Positions 6,639-16,553 of a stretch of 39,923 nucleotides of DNA are shown here, in pieces. Source of the stretch: Candidatus Rokuibacteriota bacterium (GTDB lineage: Bacteria; Methylomirabilota; Methylomirabilia; Rokubacteriales; CSP1-6); contig QHSI01000008.1 of the NCBI GenBank assembly GCA_003221515.1, positions 1 through 39,923 on the forward strand, in the 5' to 3' direction. The notes beneath the pieces were generated by a model, which worked only from the letters and a program-made list of their open reading frames with translations, was not told the DNA's origin and ran no database searches. Position 1 is the stretch's first letter, and each line of letters begins with the position of its first letter. Made by a program: the position numbers and the translations under genes.

Positions 6639-8018
6639 ATGGCGCGCCCGGTCATCCTGGTCGTTGACGACGACCCCGGCGTCCGAGAGTCGTTCCGGCT
6701 GATTCTCGAAGATCACTACGACGTGCTCGACGTCCCGGACGGCCCGCGGGCGCTCGATGTGGCCAGCGCTTCCCAGATCGACCTCGTGCTGCTCGACATC
6801 CGATTGCCCGGCATGGACGGGATCGAAGTGCTCGAGCGCATCAAGGCGATCGACGAAGGGATCGAGGTCATCCTGGTCACCGCCGTCAAGACCGTGCGGA
6901 CCGCGGTGGCCGCCATGAAGCTCGGCGCGTTCGACTACCTCACGAAGCCGTTCGAGGAGGAAGAGCTGCTGTCGCTCGCTCGCCGCGCGCTCGAGCGGCG
7001 GGCGCTCGAGCGCGAGGTCGCGTTCCTTCGCTCCGAGCTCGAGCGGGCGCACGATCGCGACGAGATCGTCGGCCGCCACCCGGCGACGCAAAAGCTCCAG
7101 GCGCTCATCACGCAGGTCGCCCGCACCGCCACGACGGTGCTGATCACCGGCGAGAGCGGCACTGGCAAGGAGCTGGTCGCCCGCGCGATCCACATTCAGG
7201 GCGCGCGCCGCGAGCGGCCGTTCGTAGCGGTCAACCCGGCCGCGATCGCCGAGTCGCTCATCGAGTCCGAGCTCTTCGGGCACGAGCGCGGCGCGTTCAC
7301 CGGCGCCCACCAACGCAAGCTCGGGCGGTTCGAGCTGGCGCAGGGCGGCACGCTCTTCCTGGACGAGATCGGCGCGCTCCGGGCCGAGCTCCAGGTCAAG
7401 CTCTTACGCGTGCTCCAGGAGCGCGAGATGGAGCGGGTCGGCGGCACGCGCGCCGTCAAGATCGACGTCCGGGTCATCGCGGCGACCAACACCAACCTGA
7501 AGGAAGCGGTGCAGCGCGAGGCTTTCCGCGAGGATCTCTACTATCGCCTCAACGTGGTGCAGCTGGTGGTGCCGCCCCTGCGTGAGCGCGCCTCGGACAT
7601 CCCGCTGCTGGTCGAGCACTTCATCCGCCGCGGCGAGCGAGAGCTCAACAAGCGTATCGACGGACTCTCGCCGGAGGCGCTCGCCGCCCTCCAGGCCTAC
7701 CGGTGGCCGGGAAATGTGCGCGAGCTCATGAACGTCATCGAACGGTGTGTCGTGCTGGCCGAAGGGCCGGTCATTCAGCTCAACGATCTGCCGCTGGACG
7801 TGCTGCTGCCGCAGCAGATGACGAAAGTGCGGGCCGCCGAGACGCTTCCGCTCAACGAAGCCACCGATCAGTTCGAGCGCCAGATGGTGCTGCGGGTGCT
7901 CGAGCGCGTCGGCTGGAACCTCACCGAGGCCGGACGCATCCTCAACGTGCATCGCAACTCGCTCCGCGTGAAGCTCGCGCGCTGGGGAGTGCGCGCGCCG
8001 GGCACGGCCGCGCGATGA
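6639..8018 (+). CDS. NtrC-family sigma-54-dependent response regulator
   Basis: A 459-residue regulator with the complete three-domain plan. The receiver domain (about 4-118) has acidic residues DDD at 10-12, phosphoacceptor Asp53 in LLDIRLPGMDG and the conserved Lys in TKPF. The AAA+ sigma-54 activation domain (about 145-380) has Walker A GESGTGKE (171-178) and the sigma-54-contacting loop GAFTGA (218-223). The C-terminal Fis-type helix-turn-helix (about 415-450) contains LTEAGRILNVHRNSLRVKL. It would activate sigma-54 promoters once phosphorylated. Three dyads start one base after its stop, and a -24/-12 promoter follows at 8159. The two kinases at 10047-13069 are its likely partners, so this looks like the control gene of the downstream operon. 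Confidence 0.95.
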   Translation: MARPVILVVDDDPGVRESFRLILEDHYDVLDVPDGPRALDVASASQIDLVLLDIRLPGMDGIEVLERIKAIDEGIEVILVTAVKTVRTAVAAMKLGAFDYLTKPFEEEELLSLARRALERRALEREVAFLRSELERAHDRDEIVGRHPATQKLQALITQVARTATTVLITGESGTGKELVARAIHIQGARRERPFVAVNPAAIAESLIESELFGHERGAFTGAHQRKLGRFELAQGGTLFLDEIGALRAELQVKLLRVLQEREMERVGGTRAVKIDVRVIAATNTNLKEAVQREAFREDLYYRLNVVQLVVPPLRERASDIPLLVEHFIRRGERELNKRIDGLSPEALAALQAYRWPGNVRELMNVIERCVVLAEGPVIQLNDLPLDVLLPQQMTKVRAAETLPLNEATDQFERQMVLRVLERVGWNLTEAGRILNVHRNSLRVKLARWGVRAPGTAAR

Positions 8019-8072
8019 GCGCCCAGCCGCTGGGCGCCCAGTGCTTGGGCGCTCCGCACAGTTACTGTGCGG
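8019..8072 (+). promoter_or_regulatory. Three enhancer-like dyads (UAS) for the NtrC-type activator
   Basis: Dyad 1 is GCGCCCAG-CCG-CTGGGCGC (8019-8037, perfect). Dyad 2 overlaps it: GCGCCCAG-TGC-TTGGGCGC (8034-8052, one mismatch). Dyad 3 is CCGCACAG-TTA-CTGTGCGG (8054-8072, perfect). All share the form SCGCMCAG-N3-CTGKGCGS. Their centres (8028, 8043, 8063) lie about 157, 142 and 122 bases upstream of the expected start of the sigma-54 promoter, the usual distance for NtrC-type enhancers. That they bind the adjacent regulator is inference. Confidence 0.75.
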
Positions 8073-8158
8073 CGGCGTCGCGAGGCGCCACCACCGCACG
8101 CGGGGTTCACATCCGAGAAACAAGGACTTGGATGGAACGCGCCAATCGTCAGCCCATG

Positions 8159-8174
8159 TGGCGTTCGAATTGCT
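8159..8174 (+). promoter_or_regulatory. Sigma-54 (-24/-12) promoter
   Basis: TGGCGTTCGAATTGCT fits the RpoN consensus TGGCAC-N5-TTGCW, with GG (8160-8161) and GC (8172-8173) separated by exactly ten bases. Transcription would start near 8185. It lies downstream of the three dyads and upstream of the 46-residue peptide gene, with no other gene in between. Confidence 0.82.
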
Positions 8175-8199
8175 CTCTCTTCACCGCGGTCACGCTACT

Positions 8200-8222
8200 G
8201 AGGCTCTCATGGGGAGAGCCTC
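8200..8222 (+). promoter_or_regulatory. Leader hairpin in the 5' untranslated region
   Basis: GAGGCTCTC (8200-8208) and GAGAGCCTC (8214-8222) form a perfect 9-bp stem with loop ATGGG. It starts about 15 bases after the predicted transcription start and ends just before the ribosome-binding site GGAGGAG (8231-8237). It could protect the 5' end or tune translation of the small peptide. Confidence 0.5.
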
Positions 8223-8243
8223 TCAACCGCGGAGGAGAGGGCA

Positions 8244-8384
8244 ATGACGAAGGTTTGGACCAGCATCGTCGTCGTGGCGGCAATCATCGGGTCGTTCCTG
8301 CTCGTGGCGCCGGTCATCGAGTCGGTCTCGAGCTCGACGCAATACTTCCAGGCGGTCGGCACCGCTGACGGTGGAGGCGACTAA
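8244..8384 (+). CDS. 46-residue membrane peptide, first gene of the sigma-54 operon
   Basis: ATG 8244 to TAA 8382-8384 encodes 46 residues and is easy to miss because of its length. A strong ribosome-binding site (GGAGGAGAGG, 8231-8240) sits four bases before the ATG. Third codon positions are mostly G or C. The product has a short N-terminus (MTKVW), one hydrophobic helix (SIVVVAAIIGSFLLVAPVI, about residues 7-25) and a polar tail rich in Ser, Gln and Gly ending GGGD. That is the layout of a single-pass membrane peptide or an uncleaved secreted peptide. It is the first gene after the sigma-54 promoter and is followed by a strong hairpin at 8406. I do not recognise the family. It could be a sensor accessory, a signal, or a membrane-stress peptide; none of these can be chosen from sequence. 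Confidence 0.75.
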   Translation: MTKVWTSIVVVAAIIGSFLLVAPVIESVSSSTQYFQAVGTADGGGD

Positions 8385-8397
8385 CACTCGTACGGGA

Positions 8398-10050
8398 ATG
8401 AGAGCGAAGGGGGGCATCAGGCCCCCCTTCTGGCTCGCCCTTCTCCTCGGTGTGCCGGTGTGCGCCGGCGCTCTGGTGTCGTTTCTCGTCGGAGAGCCGG
8501 TCAAGCACGCCTCGGTCGTGGCGAGCCAGCTCGAGGACACCGAGCGATCGTATCGGCGACCGCTGGCCCACGACCCCGAGACGCTCGATCCGGCGCGGAT
8601 CACCGATGTCTACAGTCGCTCGGTCGCGAACCAGATCTTTGACGGCCTCGTGTACTTCGACGCGACGGTCAACGTCGGTCCGGCGCTCGCGGAGTTCTGG
8701 CGAAGCTCGCGCGACAACCTGACGTGGACCTTCAATCTCCGGAAGAACGTGAAATTCCACCACGGGCGGGAGCTGGTGGCGGACGACGTCGTGTTCTCGC
8801 TGATACGTCTGCTCGATCCGAAGACCGGCTCGAGCGTGTCCGAGCTGTTCATGAACGTCCGCGGCGCGCGTGAGTTCGCGGACGGCAAGGCGAAGACGGT
8901 CTCAGGGCTCGTCGCCCTCGACCGCCACACGGTCCGGATCTCGCTGAACGCCGTGCACTCAGCGTTCGTCTCGTTGCTCGCGGTCGGGCAGGCGAAGATC
9001 CTGCCGCGGGACATCGTGGAGGCGCGCGGCGACGCGTTCGGCGTGCAGCCGATCGGCACCGGCCCGTTTCGGTTCCTCCGCTGGGACCGCGGAAAGGAGC
9101 TGGTCCTCACCGCGAACCCGACCTACTTCCAGGCGCCGCCGAAGCTGTCGCGCCTGGTCTTCCGGATCTTTCCGGGTGACCAGCGCCACGCCATGGACGA
9201 CGAGTTTCGGAGGGGCAACCTCGAGGACGCGCCGATCCCGCCGGGTGCCGACCGGGCGCGTCTGGCGCAGGATCCCGCGCACGTCTACGTGAAGCGTCCG
9301 ATGAACAGCGTGCGCTTCTACGGGTTCAACACCCGGATCAAGCCGCTCAACGACCGGCGGGTGCGGCAAGCCATCAGCCATGCGATCGATCGCGAGACGA
9401 TCATCCAGGACGTGTACCCGGGCCAGTACGTGCTCGCCAACGGGGTCATCCCGCCGACGATGCTCGGCTACAATCGGGCACTCGCCGGCTATTCCTATGA
9501 CCCGGCGCGGGCCCGCGAGCTGCTCGCCCAGGCGGGCTATCCCGGAGGTCGCGGGCTCGGACCGCTGGTCATCTGGTCGAGTGTCAAGCGCGACGACATC
9601 CTCCGAGAGCACGAGCTGATCAGGAAGTCGCTGGCGACGGTTGGCGTCCCCGTCGAGATCCGTTACCTGACGGATTGGCCGACCTTCTCGAAGATGATCG
9701 ACGAGGGCAAGCTGCCGATCTTCCTCTACGCCTGGTACGCCGACGTTCCCGACCCCGACAACTTTCTCGGCTGGTTGTTCCATTCGCGAGGGCCGCGCAA
9801 CTTCTTCGGGTACCGGAACGCCGAGGTCGACCGGCTCCTGATGGGCGCTCGGACCGCGGGCGACGTCCAACTCCGCGTCGACCAGTATCGGAAAGCCGAG
9901 CAGCTGATCCTCGAAGACGCGCCGATCGTGCCGATCTTCCACCACACGTACGAGCGGCTCTTCCAAACCTACGTGCGGAACGTCGAGGTGAGCGGCCTGG
10001 GCGACGCCTACATCCCGTTTCGGAAGATCTGGCTGGAGCGCGCGCGATGA
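8398..10050 (+). CDS. Membrane-anchored family-5 (peptide/nickel type) solute-binding protein
   Basis: About 550 residues from ATG 8398 (a GTG at 8371 would overlap the peptide gene). A hydrophobic segment (WLALLLGVPVCAGALVSFLV, about 11-30) has no convincing lipobox or cleavage site and probably stays as a membrane anchor. The SBP_bac_5 fold follows, with family landmarks around DPETLDPARITDVYSR, TWTFNLRKNVKFHHGRE, VADDVVFSL, IGTGPFRF, DRRVRQAISHAID and DNFLGWLFHS. Such proteins bind oligopeptides, nickel complexes or similar ligands in the periplasm. No permease or ATPase gene is nearby. The gene overlaps the following kinase gene by four bases (ATGA), which suggests that ligand sensing with the kinase is its main job (inference). 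Confidence 0.9.
   Translation: MRAKGGIRPPFWLALLLGVPVCAGALVSFLVGEPVKHASVVASQLEDTERSYRRPLAHDPETLDPARITDVYSRSVANQIFDGLVYFDATVNVGPALAEFWRSSRDNLTWTFNLRKNVKFHHGRELVADDVVFSLIRLLDPKTGSSVSELFMNVRGAREFADGKAKTVSGLVALDRHTVRISLNAVHSAFVSLLAVGQAKILPRDIVEARGDAFGVQPIGTGPFRFLRWDRGKELVLTANPTYFQAPPKLSRLVFRIFPGDQRHAMDDEFRRGNLEDAPIPPGADRARLAQDPAHVYVKRPMNSVRFYGFNTRIKPLNDRRVRQAISHAIDRETIIQDVYPGQYVLANGVIPPTMLGYNRALAGYSYDPARARELLAQAGYPGGRGLGPLVIWSSVKRDDILREHELIRKSLATVGVPVEIRYLTDWPTFSKMIDEGKLPIFLYAWYADVPDPDNFLGWLFHSRGPRNFFGYRNAEVDRLLMGARTAGDVQLRVDQYRKAEQLILEDAPIVPIFHHTYERLFQTYVRNVEVSGLGDAYIPFRKIWLERAR
8406..8430 (+). terminator. Strong hairpin between the peptide ORF and the SBP reading frame (attenuator candidate)
   Basis: GAAGGGGGGC (8406-8415) and GCCCCCCTTC (8421-8430) pair perfectly over 10 bp with loop ATCAG. 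It begins 22 bases after the peptide stop and lies within the first codons of the SBP gene. The shape (A/G-rich left base, C-rich then T-containing right base) is terminator-like, but the T-run is short. It could end most transcripts after the peptide gene and let a fraction read into the SBP and kinase genes. Confidence 0.5.
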
Positions 10051-11945
10051 GGCCGCGCTCGCTGCGGGCCAAGCTGCTCCTGGGCACGTTCCTGGTGATC
10101 GCCCTGGTGATGACGGCTGTCTTCGTGGTGGTCGAGCACCGCCAGAGCGCGGCGATCGTCATCGAGGTCCAGCGCCGCGGCGAAGTGCTGGCGCGCAGCC
10201 TGGCGACGATCTCTCACGCCCCGATCCTGCTCTACAACTTCACCGCGCTCGAGCAGAACGTGGTGCGGGTCGCCGAGGAGCCCGACGTGGTGTACGCGTT
10301 CATTCTCGACGCCGACGGGACGGTCGCGGCCCACAGCAGGCACCCCGAGCGGGTGGGACTCTCCCTCAAGGGCGGTGTGCACGAGCGCGCCGCCCGCGCG
10401 GTCGAGCCCCTGACCCAGGAGACCGTCACCAGCGCGGGCGAAGCGGTCTTCGACTTCGCAGTGCCGGTGATGGTGGAGGACCGCAAGTGGGGCACCGTCC
10501 GTCTCGGCCTCTCCAAGCGCCGGATGGAAGCTGAGATCTTGCGGACGCGGCTCGAGCTGGGGGTCCTGACCCTCGCGACGCTGCTGGTCGGCGGCGTGGC
10601 CGCGGCGCTGGTGGCCCGGCGGATCGCCCGCCCGGTGCAGCTGCTCGCCGAAGGGGCCGCCGCCATCTCGCGCGGAGAGCTCTATCAGCGGATCGAGCCG
10701 TCGACCGCCGACGAGCTGGGCCGTCTCGCCGCCGCGTTCAACCACATGGCGGTGCAGCTGCTGCAGCAGCGGCGGGCCCTGGAGGAAGCGCACGACGGGC
10801 TCCGGCAGAAGTTCGAGGAGCTGATCGACCTCAAGAGCTACACCGACAACATCCTGGGCTCGCTCACCAATGGCATCGTGACGATCGACCTCGGCGGCCG
10901 CATCGTCACGCTGAACCCGGCGGCCGAGCAGTTGACGGGCTTCTTCCGCGGCGAGGCGGCCGGCCGCTACTGCACCGAGCTCTTCGCCCACACGCCCGAG
11001 GTCAGCGATCTCCTGACCGACACGCTGGCCAGCCACGCACCGCTCACGAGCGTGCCGCTCACGCTGCGGCGGCGGAACGGCAGCTCGCTGCCGATCGAGC
11101 TCAGCACGGCCCCACTCAGGGGCGCCGAGGGCAAGGCCCTCGGCGTGGTCGCCATCCTGCGCGACGTGACGCTCGTCCGCCAGCTGGAGAACGATCTGCG
11201 GCGCTCGGATCGGCTGGCGGCCCTCGGGACGCTCGCGGCCGGGCTCGCGCACGAGATCAAGAACCCGCTCACCTCGTTGCTCACGTTCAGCAAACATCTC
11301 GAGCGGAAGTTCGACGACCAGAACTTCCGTGCCCGGTTCGGCAGCGTCGTGCCGCGCGAGCTGGAGCGGATCAACGGCATCGTCGAGCGGCTGCTCGAGC
11401 TGGCGCGGCCAGCGCGGGTCAGCTTCACCCTGGTGAGGCTGCCGGAGTTGCTCGAGCGCGCCCTCGAGCTCTACGGCGACCAGCTCGATGAGCGGGGGAT
11501 CGACGTCGTGCGCGAGTACGCGCGCGACGTGCCACAGATCCAGGCCGACAAGGAGGCCCTCTATCGCGTCTTCGTCAACCTCGTCGCCAACGCGATCGAC
11601 GCGATGCCGAGCGGCGGCCAGCTCACGGTGCGCGCCGGCTGGGCGGCCTCCGGCGACCCGCTGTCGCCGCCAGCGCGCCGGCGGTCGACCAACCGCGTGA
11701 AGGTGGAGATCGAGGACACCGGGGTCGGGATCGAGCCGTCGGAGACGGAGCGCATCTTCAACCCGTTCTATACGACGCGCGACAGCGGCACCGGGCTCGG
11801 CCTGGCGCTGGCGCACAAGGTCGTCCAGGACCACGGCGGGGTGATCAGCTTCAAGAGCACGCCCCGCGTCGGCACGACGTTCACGATCGTCCTGTCGCTC
11901 GTCGCCGAGCCGCCGGCCTCCGCCGACGAGGCGGTGGGCCGATGA
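10047..11945 (+). CDS. Membrane sensor histidine kinase (NtrB-like, Cache-HAMP-PAS-HisKA-HATPase)
   Basis: 632 residues from ATG 10047, whose bases overlap the SBP stop (ATGA). Transmembrane helix 1 (about 11-31) is followed by a periplasmic region of about 135 residues that resembles a single Cache sensor. Helix 2 (about 170-190) leads to HAMP (RIARPVQLLAEGAAAIS), then a PAS domain (about 260-375). The HisKA box is LAAGLAHEIKNPLTSLL with phosphorylatable His402. The ATPase domain shows NLVANAIDAMPSGG, DTGVGIEPSE and GTGLGLALAHKVV. The H-box type (HEIKNPL) is that of kinases paired with NtrC regulators, and the NtrC-type gene at 6639 fits as target. Confidence 0.95.
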   Translation: MRPRSLRAKLLLGTFLVIALVMTAVFVVVEHRQSAAIVIEVQRRGEVLARSLATISHAPILLYNFTALEQNVVRVAEEPDVVYAFILDADGTVAAHSRHPERVGLSLKGGVHERAARAVEPLTQETVTSAGEAVFDFAVPVMVEDRKWGTVRLGLSKRRMEAEILRTRLELGVLTLATLLVGGVAAALVARRIARPVQLLAEGAAAISRGELYQRIEPSTADELGRLAAAFNHMAVQLLQQRRALEEAHDGLRQKFEELIDLKSYTDNILGSLTNGIVTIDLGGRIVTLNPAAEQLTGFFRGEAAGRYCTELFAHTPEVSDLLTDTLASHAPLTSVPLTLRRRNGSSLPIELSTAPLRGAEGKALGVVAILRDVTLVRQLENDLRRSDRLAALGTLAAGLAHEIKNPLTSLLTFSKHLERKFDDQNFRARFGSVVPRELERINGIVERLLELARPARVSFTLVRLPELLERALELYGDQLDERGIDVVREYARDVPQIQADKEALYRVFVNLVANAIDAMPSGGQLTVRAGWAASGDPLSPPARRRSTNRVKVEIEDTGVGIEPSETERIFNPFYTTRDSGTGLGLALAHKVVQDHGGVISFKSTPRVGTTFTIVLSLVAEPPASADEAVGR

Positions 11946-13069
11946 CCGCGGAGGGCGGCGAAGTCTCCGGGGCCGGCGCGGTCAGCCTCGAGCAAGCGCT
12001 GGCCGACAACGCGACTCTGCGGCGACACGCCAGCAGCGTCGCTCACGACTTCAACAACCTGCTCGCGGTCATCAGCGGCTACACCGAGCTGATGCTGAGG
12101 CGCCTGCGGCCGGACGATCCGATGCGGCGCAACGCGGAGGCGATCAAGCGCGCCGCCGAGTGGGGTGCCGCGCTCGCCCAACAAGCTTTGGCCGGAAGCC
12201 GGCAGCCGCCACCGGCGCCGTCGCCCATGGACCTGAACCAGCTGGTCACCAACGTGACGCGTGTGCTCCAGCCGGTACTCGGCGACACCATCGAGCTCAC
12301 GACCCGACTCGCGCCCGGCCTGGCGCGCGTCAGCGTGAACGCGCACCAGATCGGCCAGGTGATCATGAACCTGGTGGTCAACGCGCGCGACGCGATGCCG
12401 GATGGCGGCCGTATCGTCATCGAGACCGCCAACGTGGGTCAGGTCGTCATGCTCTCGGTGAGCGACACCGGATCCGGCATGGACGACGAGACCCGCGCGC
12501 GGCTGTTCGAGCCGTACTTCACGACCAAGGAGCCGGGGCGCGGCACTGGGCTCGGTCTGGCGACGGTCCACGACATCGTCACGCAGTTCGGCGGGCAGAT
12601 TAGCGTGTTGAGCGACGCGGGGAGCGGCTCGACCTTCAAGATCTATCTGCCCCGGGTGGACGAGACGGTCGCGCCCGCCGGCGCGCCCGGGCGGTCGGCC
12701 GGAGCCCAGACCGTTCTCGTGGTCGACGACGAGTCCGAGGTCCGCGATCTGATCCGCGAGATCCTCGAGCTCCAGGACTACGTCGTTCTCGAGGCCGGTG
12801 ACCGGGAGAGCGCGTTCGCGCTCGCCGGACGTCACGCCGGCGCCATCGATCTGATGGTAGTCGACGCGGGCGTGCCGCCGATGCTGGCCGACGAGTGGGT
12901 CAAGCGCGTGCGGGTCACCCGGCCGGCCATCAAGGTGATCTACGTGTCGGGCTATCTCAGCGACGAAGGGTCGATGGACGCGCCGACCCTCGGCCCGCTG
13001 CTCCAGAAGCCGTTCACGGTCGGCGCCTTCACGAAGCTGGTCCGTCTCGTGCTCGGCGGAACCCCCTAG
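11942..13069 (+). CDS. Soluble hybrid histidine kinase with C-terminal receiver domain
   Basis: 375 residues with no membrane segment. It starts with a short tail, then the HisKA-like box SSVAHDFNNLLAVISGY with His35, an ATPase domain (NLVVNARDAMPDGG, DTGSGMDDET, GTGLGLATV) and a receiver domain from about 255. The receiver keeps the acidic pair (VVDDESE), phosphoacceptor Asp308 in VVDAGVPP and the Lys of QKPF. ATG overlaps the stop of the preceding kinase by four bases. A cytoplasmic kinase of this type often feeds or drains phosphate within a phosphorelay. Here it would work with the membrane kinase and the NtrC-type regulator (inference). Confidence 0.93.
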   Translation: MTAEGGEVSGAGAVSLEQALADNATLRRHASSVAHDFNNLLAVISGYTELMLRRLRPDDPMRRNAEAIKRAAEWGAALAQQALAGSRQPPPAPSPMDLNQLVTNVTRVLQPVLGDTIELTTRLAPGLARVSVNAHQIGQVIMNLVVNARDAMPDGGRIVIETANVGQVVMLSVSDTGSGMDDETRARLFEPYFTTKEPGRGTGLGLATVHDIVTQFGGQISVLSDAGSGSTFKIYLPRVDETVAPAGAPGRSAGAQTVLVVDDESEVRDLIREILELQDYVVLEAGDRESAFALAGRHAGAIDLMVVDAGVPPMLADEWVKRVRVTRPAIKVIYVSGYLSDEGSMDAPTLGPLLQKPFTVGAFTKLVRLVLGGTP

Positions 13070-13074
13070 GCCGG

Positions 13075-14136
13075 TCACCGGAACCGCGGCATGACCTCGC
13101 GGGCGAAGAGCTCCATGGAGCGCCGCACGCGCTCCTGAGGCAAGCCGCCGAAGTTCATCCAGCACAGCACCTCGCCGACGCCCAGGCGCCGGAACTCCTC
13201 GATCCGGTCGGCCACGGTGTCGGGCGAGCCGACGGCCAGAGTCTCGGCGACGAGCTGCTCCCAGGTGATCGTGCCGAACCGCTCGGCCATCGCCTGGAAG
13301 CCCGGCTGCAACAGTGGATGCACGCGGTCCATCCGTTCGGGGAGCAGGAAGCGGCGCAGCGCCTCCTGGTACCACATCTCGGCGTCGCGAGCCTCGGCCT
13401 GCGCCGCGGCGTCGGTCGGAGCCACGTAGACGTGGCGCGACACCCCCCAGCGGTTCAGGAGGCTCGCGATGTCGCCGGCGGTCCGGCCAGCTTTCTCGCA
13501 CGCCTTGACGTACGTGTCCCGCGTCTTGGCGAGCTGCTCGGCCGGCCCGCGCAGCAGCGAGTTGAGCATCGGCACCCCCCGCAGCGCGGTCGCCTCGATC
13601 GTGTCCGGGCTCGTGCACACGACGTAGATCGGCGGATGCGGCCGCTGGAGCGGCTTCGGGATGACCCGGACCTCGGGGATCGTGAAGTGGCGACCTTCGA
13701 AGGAGAACCGCTCGGCCGTCCACGCCTTGACGATGATCGCCAGGCTCTCGTCGAAGCGCTCGCGGTTCTCGATCTGGGGCACGCGATAACCCTCGAACTC
13801 CACCGGACGATTTCCGCGCCCCACGCCGACGTCCAGGCGCCCCTCGCTCAGGATGTCGACCATCGCCAGCTCCTCGGCGAGGCGCACCGGATCGTGGAAC
13901 GGCAGGATCGCGGCAGCCAGGCCGATGCGTACACGTCGCGTCCGCATGGCGGCGGCCGCGGCCAGAACCGCCGGCGAGACGGAGAGGCCGTAGTCGATGA
14001 AGTGGTGCTCGGTCAGCCAGATACTGTCGAAGCCAAGCTCCTCGGTCCACATCATCTGCTCGATCTCGTGCCGGATGACGTCGGGATGGCCGACCGCTGG
14101 AGGAGCCTGGAGGAAGTAGTAGGTTCCGAAGCGCAT
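13075..14136 (-). CDS. LLM-class flavin-dependent oxidoreductase (luciferase-like)
   Basis: 353 residues starting at ATG 14136 (MRFGTYYFLQAPPAV); the frame stays open further upstream only because the DNA is GC-rich. It has the TIM-barrel luciferase-like pattern: EELGFDSIWLTEHHFIDYG near residue 40, GLAAAILPFHDPVRLAEELAMVD, GRLDVGVGRGNRPVEFEGY, and PHPPIYVVCTSPDT. These enzymes use FMN or F420 to oxidise or reduce varied organic compounds; substrate is unknown. It is convergent with the hybrid-kinase gene with only five bases between the two stops. Confidence 0.92.
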   Translation of the reverse strand: MRFGTYYFLQAPPAVGHPDVIRHEIEQMMWTEELGFDSIWLTEHHFIDYGLSVSPAVLAAAAAMRTRRVRIGLAAAILPFHDPVRLAEELAMVDILSEGRLDVGVGRGNRPVEFEGYRVPQIENRERFDESLAIIVKAWTAERFSFEGRHFTIPEVRVIPKPLQRPHPPIYVVCTSPDTIEATALRGVPMLNSLLRGPAEQLAKTRDTYVKACEKAGRTAGDIASLLNRWGVSRHVYVAPTDAAAQAEARDAEMWYQEALRRFLLPERMDRVHPLLQPGFQAMAERFGTITWEQLVAETLAVGSPDTVADRIEEFRRLGVGEVLCWMNFGGLPQERVRRSMELFAREVMPRFR

Positions 14137-14156
14137 CGGAGTCGAATCTAGCGCAT

Positions 14157-14894
14157 CTACTCGTGAAAATCGACCAGTAGCGCCGCGTGATCGCTCGGCG
14201 CTCCTTTGCGTCCGCGTCGCGTTCCGGCCCACACGTGCGCCGCGTCCCGCAGGCGCTCCAGCAGCGCGGCATTGACGAACGCCTGATCGATTCGGAAGCC
14301 GTTCTGGCCGTTGGGCGAGTACCACGTGTAGGCGCGCGCTTCGGCGCGCAGGTGACGGAAGGCGTCGAGCCAGCCGCAGCCGGCGAGGGAGTCGATCCAG
14401 CCCTCCTCGCGCGCGCTGAACACGGGCGTTTCCTCGTCGAGCCCGCGCCGGCCGGAGTTCGTGTCCCCGAGGAAGAGGGCCGGCCCCAGGCGCCAGCGAC
14501 GGGCGCACGCCAGCACCGAGTCGAGGAACAGGTACTTGCGCCCGGTCACGCGGTTCGGCACGTGCATGGCGCCCAGCAGGAGCGGGCGCGGCGCGTTCAC
14601 GGAGACCAGCAGCCACCGACCCGGCTCGCGCGGCTGAGCCCTGAGGCGCAGGGGACTCACCGGCCATCGAGCGGCGACCAGCAGGGCGTTGGCCCTCGGG
14701 TTTCGGCGACTCGCGCTCGTGCACTGGTGCGACAGTCCGTGCGAGGCGAGCGAGCGGGCGAGCTCGAGGCTGGGGGGCGTGGCGCGGAACTCGGAGAGAA
14801 CGACCGCGTCCGGGGCCCAGCGCTCGAGGTACCGCGAGATGCGCCCGACGCGCTGACCGCCACCGGCCCGGATGTTCCAGGCAACGATGCGCAT
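14157..14894 (-). CDS. Endonuclease/exonuclease/phosphatase (EEP) family protein
   Basis: 245 residues. It begins MRIVAWNIRAGGG, the first EEP motif with the catalytic Asn. Other motifs are the metal-binding Glu in VVLSEFRA, GAMHVPN, FLGDTNSGRRG (Asp and Asn of the active site), NGFRIDQAFV and the final SDHAALLVDF with the catalytic Asp-His. No signal peptide is visible, so it is probably cytoplasmic. Substrate could be DNA, RNA or a phosphoester; sequence alone does not decide. It follows the cinA-type gene by eight bases on the same strand, so the two may be co-transcribed. Confidence 0.9.
   Translation of the reverse strand: MRIVAWNIRAGGGQRVGRISRYLERWAPDAVVLSEFRATPPSLELARSLASHGLSHQCTSASRRNPRANALLVAARWPVSPLRLRAQPREPGRWLLVSVNAPRPLLLGAMHVPNRVTGRKYLFLDSVLACARRWRLGPALFLGDTNSGRRGLDEETPVFSAREEGWIDSLAGCGWLDAFRHLRAEARAYTWYSPNGQNGFRIDQAFVNAALLERLRDAAHVWAGTRRGRKGAPSDHAALLVDFHE

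Positions 14895-15497: not shown

Positions 15498-16553
<1,056 letters not shown>

Follow-up and report, generated by a model that had tools for sequence, protein, structure and literature searches.

Organization of the locus

The stretch of DNA analyzed here (the window) comprises 39,923 nucleotides of contig QHSI01000008.1 from a Candidatus Rokuibacteriota bacterium. Within it, the gene for an NtrC-type response regulator is followed by three inverted repeats (dyads), a sigma-54 promoter, a small open reading frame (ORF), and the genes for a solute-binding protein and two histidine kinases, HK1 and HK2 (Table 1). The regulator combines a receiver domain, a sigma-54 AAA+ domain with the GAFTGA motif, and a Fis-type helix-turn-helix (HTH) with the recognition helix HRNSLRVKL, in agreement with a first-pass annotation of the window that had read the gene as a sigma-54 activator of the NtrC type. 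The genome carries one copy of rpoN (PF04552, E = 7.9e-61), on whose presence that annotation had made its reading depend. The encoded RpoN shares 70% identity with its counterpart in a record named Candidatus Rokubacteria, compared with 40–53% for eight genomes from other groups, in line with a placement among Rokubacteria and their relatives. With the NCBIfam equivalog models, the regulator scored 439.6 bits for ntrC (cut-off 558.6) and 331.6 bits for LuxO (cut-off 800), and it was also under the cut-offs of the AtoC and ZraR models.

The first-pass annotation led from the promoter straight into the kinases and joined these to the regulator in one circuit. HK1 and HK2 do follow, but the small ORF and the binding protein gene come before them, and the original list of targets was thus incomplete. 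The order of regulator, peptide, binding protein, HK1, and mostly HK2 is conserved. No permease or ATPase gene was found beside the binding protein gene in the window or in the syntenic operon of relatives, where a kinase gene comes directly after it, and the combination of binding protein, permease, and ATPase genes that defines a family 5 peptide ABC importer is therefore incomplete at this locus. Beyond the kinases, a second sigma-54 activator gene is kept at a similar distance in three other genomes (G013, G017, and G019).

Table 1. Features of the regulator locus and its surroundings (window positions)
Feature	Position	Strand	Remarks
NtrC-type response regulator	6639-8018	+	Pfam PF00072, PF00158, PF25601, PF02954; translation; orthologues in family
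Dyad 1	8019-8037	.	Perfect 8-3-8, GCGCCCAG-CCG-CTGGGCGC; likely enhancer site
Dyad 2	8034-8052	.	7/8 pairs, GCGCCCAG-TGC-TTGGGCGC; 4-bp overlap with dyad 1
Dyad 3	8054-8072	.	Perfect 8-3-8, CCGCACAG-TTA-CTGTGCGG
Sigma-54 (-24/-12) promoter	8159-8174	+	TGGCGTTCGAATTGCT; predicted start near 8185
Leader hairpin	8200-8222	+	9-bp stem, AUGGG loop; covarying in relatives
Shine-Dalgarno-like stretch of small ORF	8232-8239	+	GAGGAGAG; purine-rich stretch kept in relatives
Small ORF	8244-8384	+	46 aa; single hydrophobic helix with an acidic, Gly-rich tail behind it
Junction hairpin, small ORF/binding protein	8406-8430	+	GC-rich, 10 bp
Family 5 (OppA/DppA-like) solute-binding protein	8398-10050	+	Sec-like signal peptide
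HK1, membrane histidine kinase	10047-11945	+	Cache between two hydrophobic stretches, HAMP, PAS, HisKA, HATPase
HK2, soluble histidine kinase and receiver protein	11942-13069	+	
Luciferase-like monooxygenase and endonuclease/exonuclease/phosphatase genes	13075-14894	-	Convergent with operon; syntenic in genus
Second sigma-54 activator	15498-16553	-	Without receiver domain

Dyads and the sigma-54 promoter

Dyad 1 starts immediately past the stop codon of the regulator gene, and the centre-to-centre spacing is 15 bp between dyads 1 and 2 and 20 bp between dyads 2 and 3. The two perfect dyads and the near-perfect one that had been reported with a common motif are exactly where they were placed: with at most one mismatch, SCGCMCAG-N3-CTGKGCGS gives three matches in the whole window, all of them at this cluster, as opposed to a mean of 0.09 in shuffled windows, none of which held three. 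Their reported distance of 120–160 bases upstream is correct only when counted from the predicted start at ~8185; the dyad centres lie ~110–145 bp upstream of the GC of the -12 element.

We assembled a set of 45 small-ORF loci in 44 genomes of the class and counted dyad cores in the 260 bp upstream of each GG-N10-GC element. An initial count, restricted to near-perfect 8-3-8 pairing, did not pick up the outer clades, and a recount with a GCAC-N7-GTGC core and with N8 allowed recovered many of their dyads. The core GCMC-N7-GKGC (GCAC or GCCC opposite GTGC or GGGC) occurs at 47 exact sites in the 45 loci compared with 1.8 in shuffles, and the other spacings from 3 to 12 yielded between 0 and 17 sites each. 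The runner-up, N8, appears to be a real dyad variant used by some clades. It is found mostly in clades with an HRNT recognition helix and N7 mostly in those with HRNS, the exceptions being G092 and G028 (HRNS with N8) and G011 (HRNT with both). One of the N8 cases, at locus L185 in G076, has three near-identical TTGCACAA-N4-TTGTGCAA dyads (TTGCACAAAAAATTGTGCAA-type sites) upstream of the small ORF. This genome is an AT-rich relative from another family, and two of its dyads are in tandem with one closer to the promoter.

The letters of the dyads also track the recognition helix, HRNSLRVKL occurring with GCGCMCAG, HRNSLKR(M/L)L with TTGCACCA, and HRNSLNAKL with GTGCACTG. The TTGCACCA-N3-TGGTGCAA dyad, present in several genera, includes the consensus of NtrC itself, TGCACCAnnnTGGTGCA (PMC8743547). 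Because the genomes are related, the co-variation of helix and dyad is an association and no independent proof. Conservation of the dyads upstream of orthologous operons, whose absence had been named beforehand as refuting the reading, holds through the class, although with the criteria used a clean dyad was absent in several clades (e.g. G058, G060, G062, and G005). With this conservation, and with letters and spacing that change in step with the recognition helix, the adjacent regulator very probably binds at these dyads.

The promoter element TGGCGTTCGAATTGCT is the sole TGGCN7TTGCW in the window, and the same pattern occurred in 24 of 100 shuffles of the window; taken alone, the element is weak evidence and not significant in one 40-kb window. 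We accept the promoter on the conservation of the element at the orthologous place and not on the motif match alone. The small ORF is preceded by a GG-N10-GC element at every one of the 45 orthologous loci, a count that is partly by construction because the scan fixed GG and GC and took the best match. The remaining letters were free and are nearly invariant, reading TGGC (C at position 4 in 42 of 45) and, on the -12 side, TTGCT (T before GC in 44 and T after GC in 41); in G029 the match is poor. The promoter proposed in the first-pass annotation thus stands, and its description as an exact -24/-12 element applies to GG-N10-GC, not to the full TGGCACG, which is not present.

A scan for the dyad motif had been suggested as a way to define a regulon, and this found no support. 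Genome-wide, single dyads with three mismatches gave 578 matches against 572 for the reversed motif, which amounts to no signal, and a regulon built from single dyads was dropped on this comparison. The best single hits that were inspected at other places (L034–L042 and L044–L046) all lack TGGCN7-[CT]TGC within 350 bp. The tandem pattern, by contrast, is found in the genus only at the regulator locus and at one extra site in G018, and this near-uniqueness points to a local loop and not to a broad regulon. The extra tandem pair (L205, contig C570, ~408–444) lies upstream of an unrelated ORF (665–1729) and a phospholipase D-like ORF, with no clear GG-N10-GC downstream of it. It may be a second regulator target in G018, a genome scored as 9% contaminated.

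A conserved small membrane protein

By its position behind the predicted promoter, the small ORF is the first gene of the putative sigma-54 transcript, ahead of the kinases. It was found with good scores, in single copy, in 38 of 57 genomes of the family and, more sparsely, elsewhere in the class, where six additional genomes have it, among them G093 with two copies that each have their own regulator. At all 45 loci the small ORF adjoins the same regulator, following it. This linkage is exclusive: family genomes without the small ORF have no regulator above ~64% identity, except for G046 and G052, in which the contig ends at or shortly past the regulator and the small ORF was not seen. No small ORF was found at 80 more distant regulator loci outside the class, nor in one named Rokubacteria genome, which may lack the relevant branch. 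The pN/pS ratio is 0.22 in the genus, where pS has already reached 0.50, and 0.39 across the family, which demonstrates purifying selection, and the small ORF is a real coding gene.

The protein has no convincing match in Pfam, NCBIfam, or the PDB. Its copies have one or two Lys/Arg residues at the N terminus, a hydrophobic stretch at approximately residues 4–22, and, in nearly all, P-x-x-E; the tail is acidic and Gly-rich, and only four copies, all from outer clades, have Lys/Arg past residue 4. An AlphaFold model shows one helix, to which we give limited weight as it was made from a single sequence. From the positive-inside rule, the peptide is probably oriented with its N terminus in the cytoplasm and its tail in the periplasm, and the Pro residue after the hydrophobic stretch argues against release of the peptide by ordinary signal peptidase cleavage. 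A small hydrophobic protein with a single helix, encoded behind a structured leader, could also be a tightly controlled membrane toxin of a type I-like kind. We consider this highly improbable, as the gene is single copy and syntenic and was not found in plasmid or phage collections, no antisense RNA gene was identified, and the soluble tail is conserved.

RNA hairpins flanking the small ORF

With the loop ATGG as the anchor for 35 leaders, the nine flanking positions pair above re-paired controls; the anchor was the loop and not the pairing, so the near-invariance of AUGG is partly by construction. In an alignment of 25 leaders, all nine stem pairs change on both sides, and 95.6% of the cells are paired compared with 78% in shuffles and 40–63% when the alignment is slid. 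The hairpin model has one good-scoring copy per genome in the genus. As to its role, mRNA stability or ribosome access to the Shine-Dalgarno stretch would be our guess. The AUG in the loop was considered as the start of an upstream ORF and ruled out, its distance to the true start not being conserved in frame and the AUG being missing in some relatives.

A covarying hairpin with a near-invariant AUGG loop (with the reservation about anchoring given above), on a sigma-54 transcript under an NtrC-type regulator as in LuxO-Qrr (PMC4878744), raises the question of whether the locus makes a dual-function RNA in which the leader hairpin and a short transcript are regulatory and the ORF is secondary. 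Conservation, however, is in the protein reading frame, and the hairpin has neither convincing matches elsewhere nor a match to an Rfam family, which makes this reading improbable.

A second, GC-rich hairpin at the junction with the binding protein gene is present after the small ORF in most members of the genus and in many relatives. The copy in the window has no T-tract and was not scored as a terminator, and a mainly short transcript is therefore not established; it is possible that the hairpin acts as an attenuator that lowers read-through or translation. In the genus, its bases also encode the KGG(G)-x-PPF start of the signal peptide of the binding protein. RNA structure and protein sequence (the Lys-Gly-Gly and Pro-Pro codons) thus occupy the same bases.

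YcaO and TfuA genes at the locus

TfuA is uncommon in the class, occurring in 5 of 95 genomes, and in four of these five genomes the YcaO-TfuA genes are at the regulator locus; in the fifth, G008, they are elsewhere. They lie between the regulator and the small ORF in G045 (L178) and G029 (L179) and, in G004 (L209), a short way upstream of the regulator. In G041 (L208), the contig that carries the pair starts with the end of ComM, the start of which adjoins the regulator on another contig, and the matching contig ends place the pair probably ~2.5 kb from the regulator locus. The four cases come from four genera. Chance would hardly bring four of five cases to one locus in three arrangements, and shared ancestry may account for part of this clustering.

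YcaO and TfuA are an established thioamidation pair (PMC6511847), and the small peptide is an obvious candidate substrate. Its ORF might accordingly encode a precursor of the RiPP type, with a modified tail, thioamidated where YcaO-TfuA is present, that serves as a secreted signal or antimicrobial. The placement of the pair at the locus in four genomes favors this proposal, but YcaO-TfuA is missing from the locus in 40 of the 44 genomes with the small ORF, including that of the window, in which no YcaO and TfuA are encoded with the would-be precursor, and nearly all of these 40 have no such pair at all. The protein moreover has no obvious division into leader and core and no Cys-rich or repeat core, and its entire sequence is conserved, including the hydrophobic part. 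We therefore regard a RiPP precursor as an unlikely explanation of the locus.

Comparison with known systems

Like NtrC and the other group I enhancer-binding proteins, the regulator joins a receiver, an AAA+ domain with GAFTGA, and a Fis-type HTH, with dyads upstream of a -24/-12 element. It differs from NtrC in that it appears to target one local promoter and no nitrogen regulon and has, in the genus, the half site GCGCMCAG. In the quorum-sensing circuit of Vibrio, LuxP is a periplasmic binding protein and the Qrr RNAs are sRNAs. The locus resembles LuxP-LuxQ-LuxO-Qrr in combining a periplasmic binding protein and a membrane kinase with an NtrC-type regulator for a sigma-54 transcript (PMC4878744). 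Here, however, the transcript encodes a conserved peptide and not an sRNA, the binding protein belongs to family 5 (OppA/DppA), all parts are in one locus, and no separate phosphotransfer protein was seen. With a LuxO score far under the cut-off and a coding output, the locus shares the LuxPQ-LuxO layout but is not a member of that system.

The kinase part of HK1 resembles AtoS and ZraS, and the domain order of the regulator resembles AtoC; unlike AtoSC and ZraSR, the locus remains under the equivalog cut-offs and has an additional binding protein, small ORF, and second kinase. The four genomes with YcaO-TfuA near a short conserved ORF recall the RiPP clusters with this pair (thioviridamide-like and thiovarsolin), from which they differ in that the product of the small ORF resembles a membrane peptide that is not cleaved and that the pair is missing in the genome of the window and in most relatives. 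A literature search found no paper that combines Rokubacteria and sigma-54.

Proposed circuit

That the regulator, its dyads, the promoter, and the sensor genes form an autoregulated sigma-54 two-component loop, whatever the peptide may do, we hold with high confidence. In this loop, a sensor consisting of the binding protein and HK1, possibly with HK2, would phosphorylate the NtrC-type regulator, which would assemble on the dyads just 3' of its own gene and drive the sigma-54 promoter. The predicted transcript would carry a structured leader, the 46-residue membrane peptide, the GC hairpin, and then the binding protein and the two kinases, and so yield more sensor. The tail of the peptide would be in the periplasm, the same compartment as the binding protein and the Cache domain of HK1, and because of this probable co-localization a feedback ligand or modulator is the simplest role for it; the peptide is thus most likely a self-produced signal or modulator that acts back on the sensor. 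The complete proposal, in which the first output of the loop is a small membrane peptide feeding back on its own sensor, is the one we favor, with moderate confidence. The peptide could instead work within the membrane or on a target outside the locus.

The binding protein comes from a family of nutrient receptors, and the operon in the window has no exporter or processing gene. Both observations would also suit an operon for nutrient sensing only. In that case HK1 and the regulator would respond to a peptide or comparable solute that the binding protein captures from outside, and the small protein would be no signal but a lesser accessory in the membrane, for instance a mini-protein that stabilizes the kinase; the Pro residue at the membrane boundary, which disfavors release of a free peptide, likewise speaks for such an accessory. 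On the other hand, the small ORF is proximal to the promoter and has a conserved hairpin leader of its own, its linkage to the regulator is at least as strong as that of the kinases, and an accessory role alone leaves YcaO-TfuA at the locus unexplained. Nutrient sensing with an accessory mini-protein therefore seems to us rather unlikely.

The feedback loop can be extended to a class-wide, hitherto undescribed autoinducing peptide circuit of Rokubacteria and their relatives, in which the tail would be read by the OppA-like binding protein and the Cache kinase, the loop through the NtrC-type regulator would be positive, and the signal would be thioamidated in some lineages. Export, release, and sensing of the peptide are suggested by its predicted topology and its linkage, and this extension, with all of its parts taken together, is speculative and doubtful.

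The point of interest is an undescribed mini-protein as a regulated output. In a group known mostly from metagenomes, the locus adds a family of conserved mini-proteins that neither Pfam nor NCBIfam lists, and for this family the promoter, enhancers, leader hairpin, and likely partners can be named as well. Should the feedback interpretation prove true, the locus would represent a sigma-54-based loop for peptide sensing in a Gram-negative group, and we found no such signaling described in this group. Even without feedback, the locus offers a clean natural series across which the recognition helix shifts together with the letters and the spacing of the dyads, and this series should help to work out how regulators with a Fis-type HTH recognize DNA.
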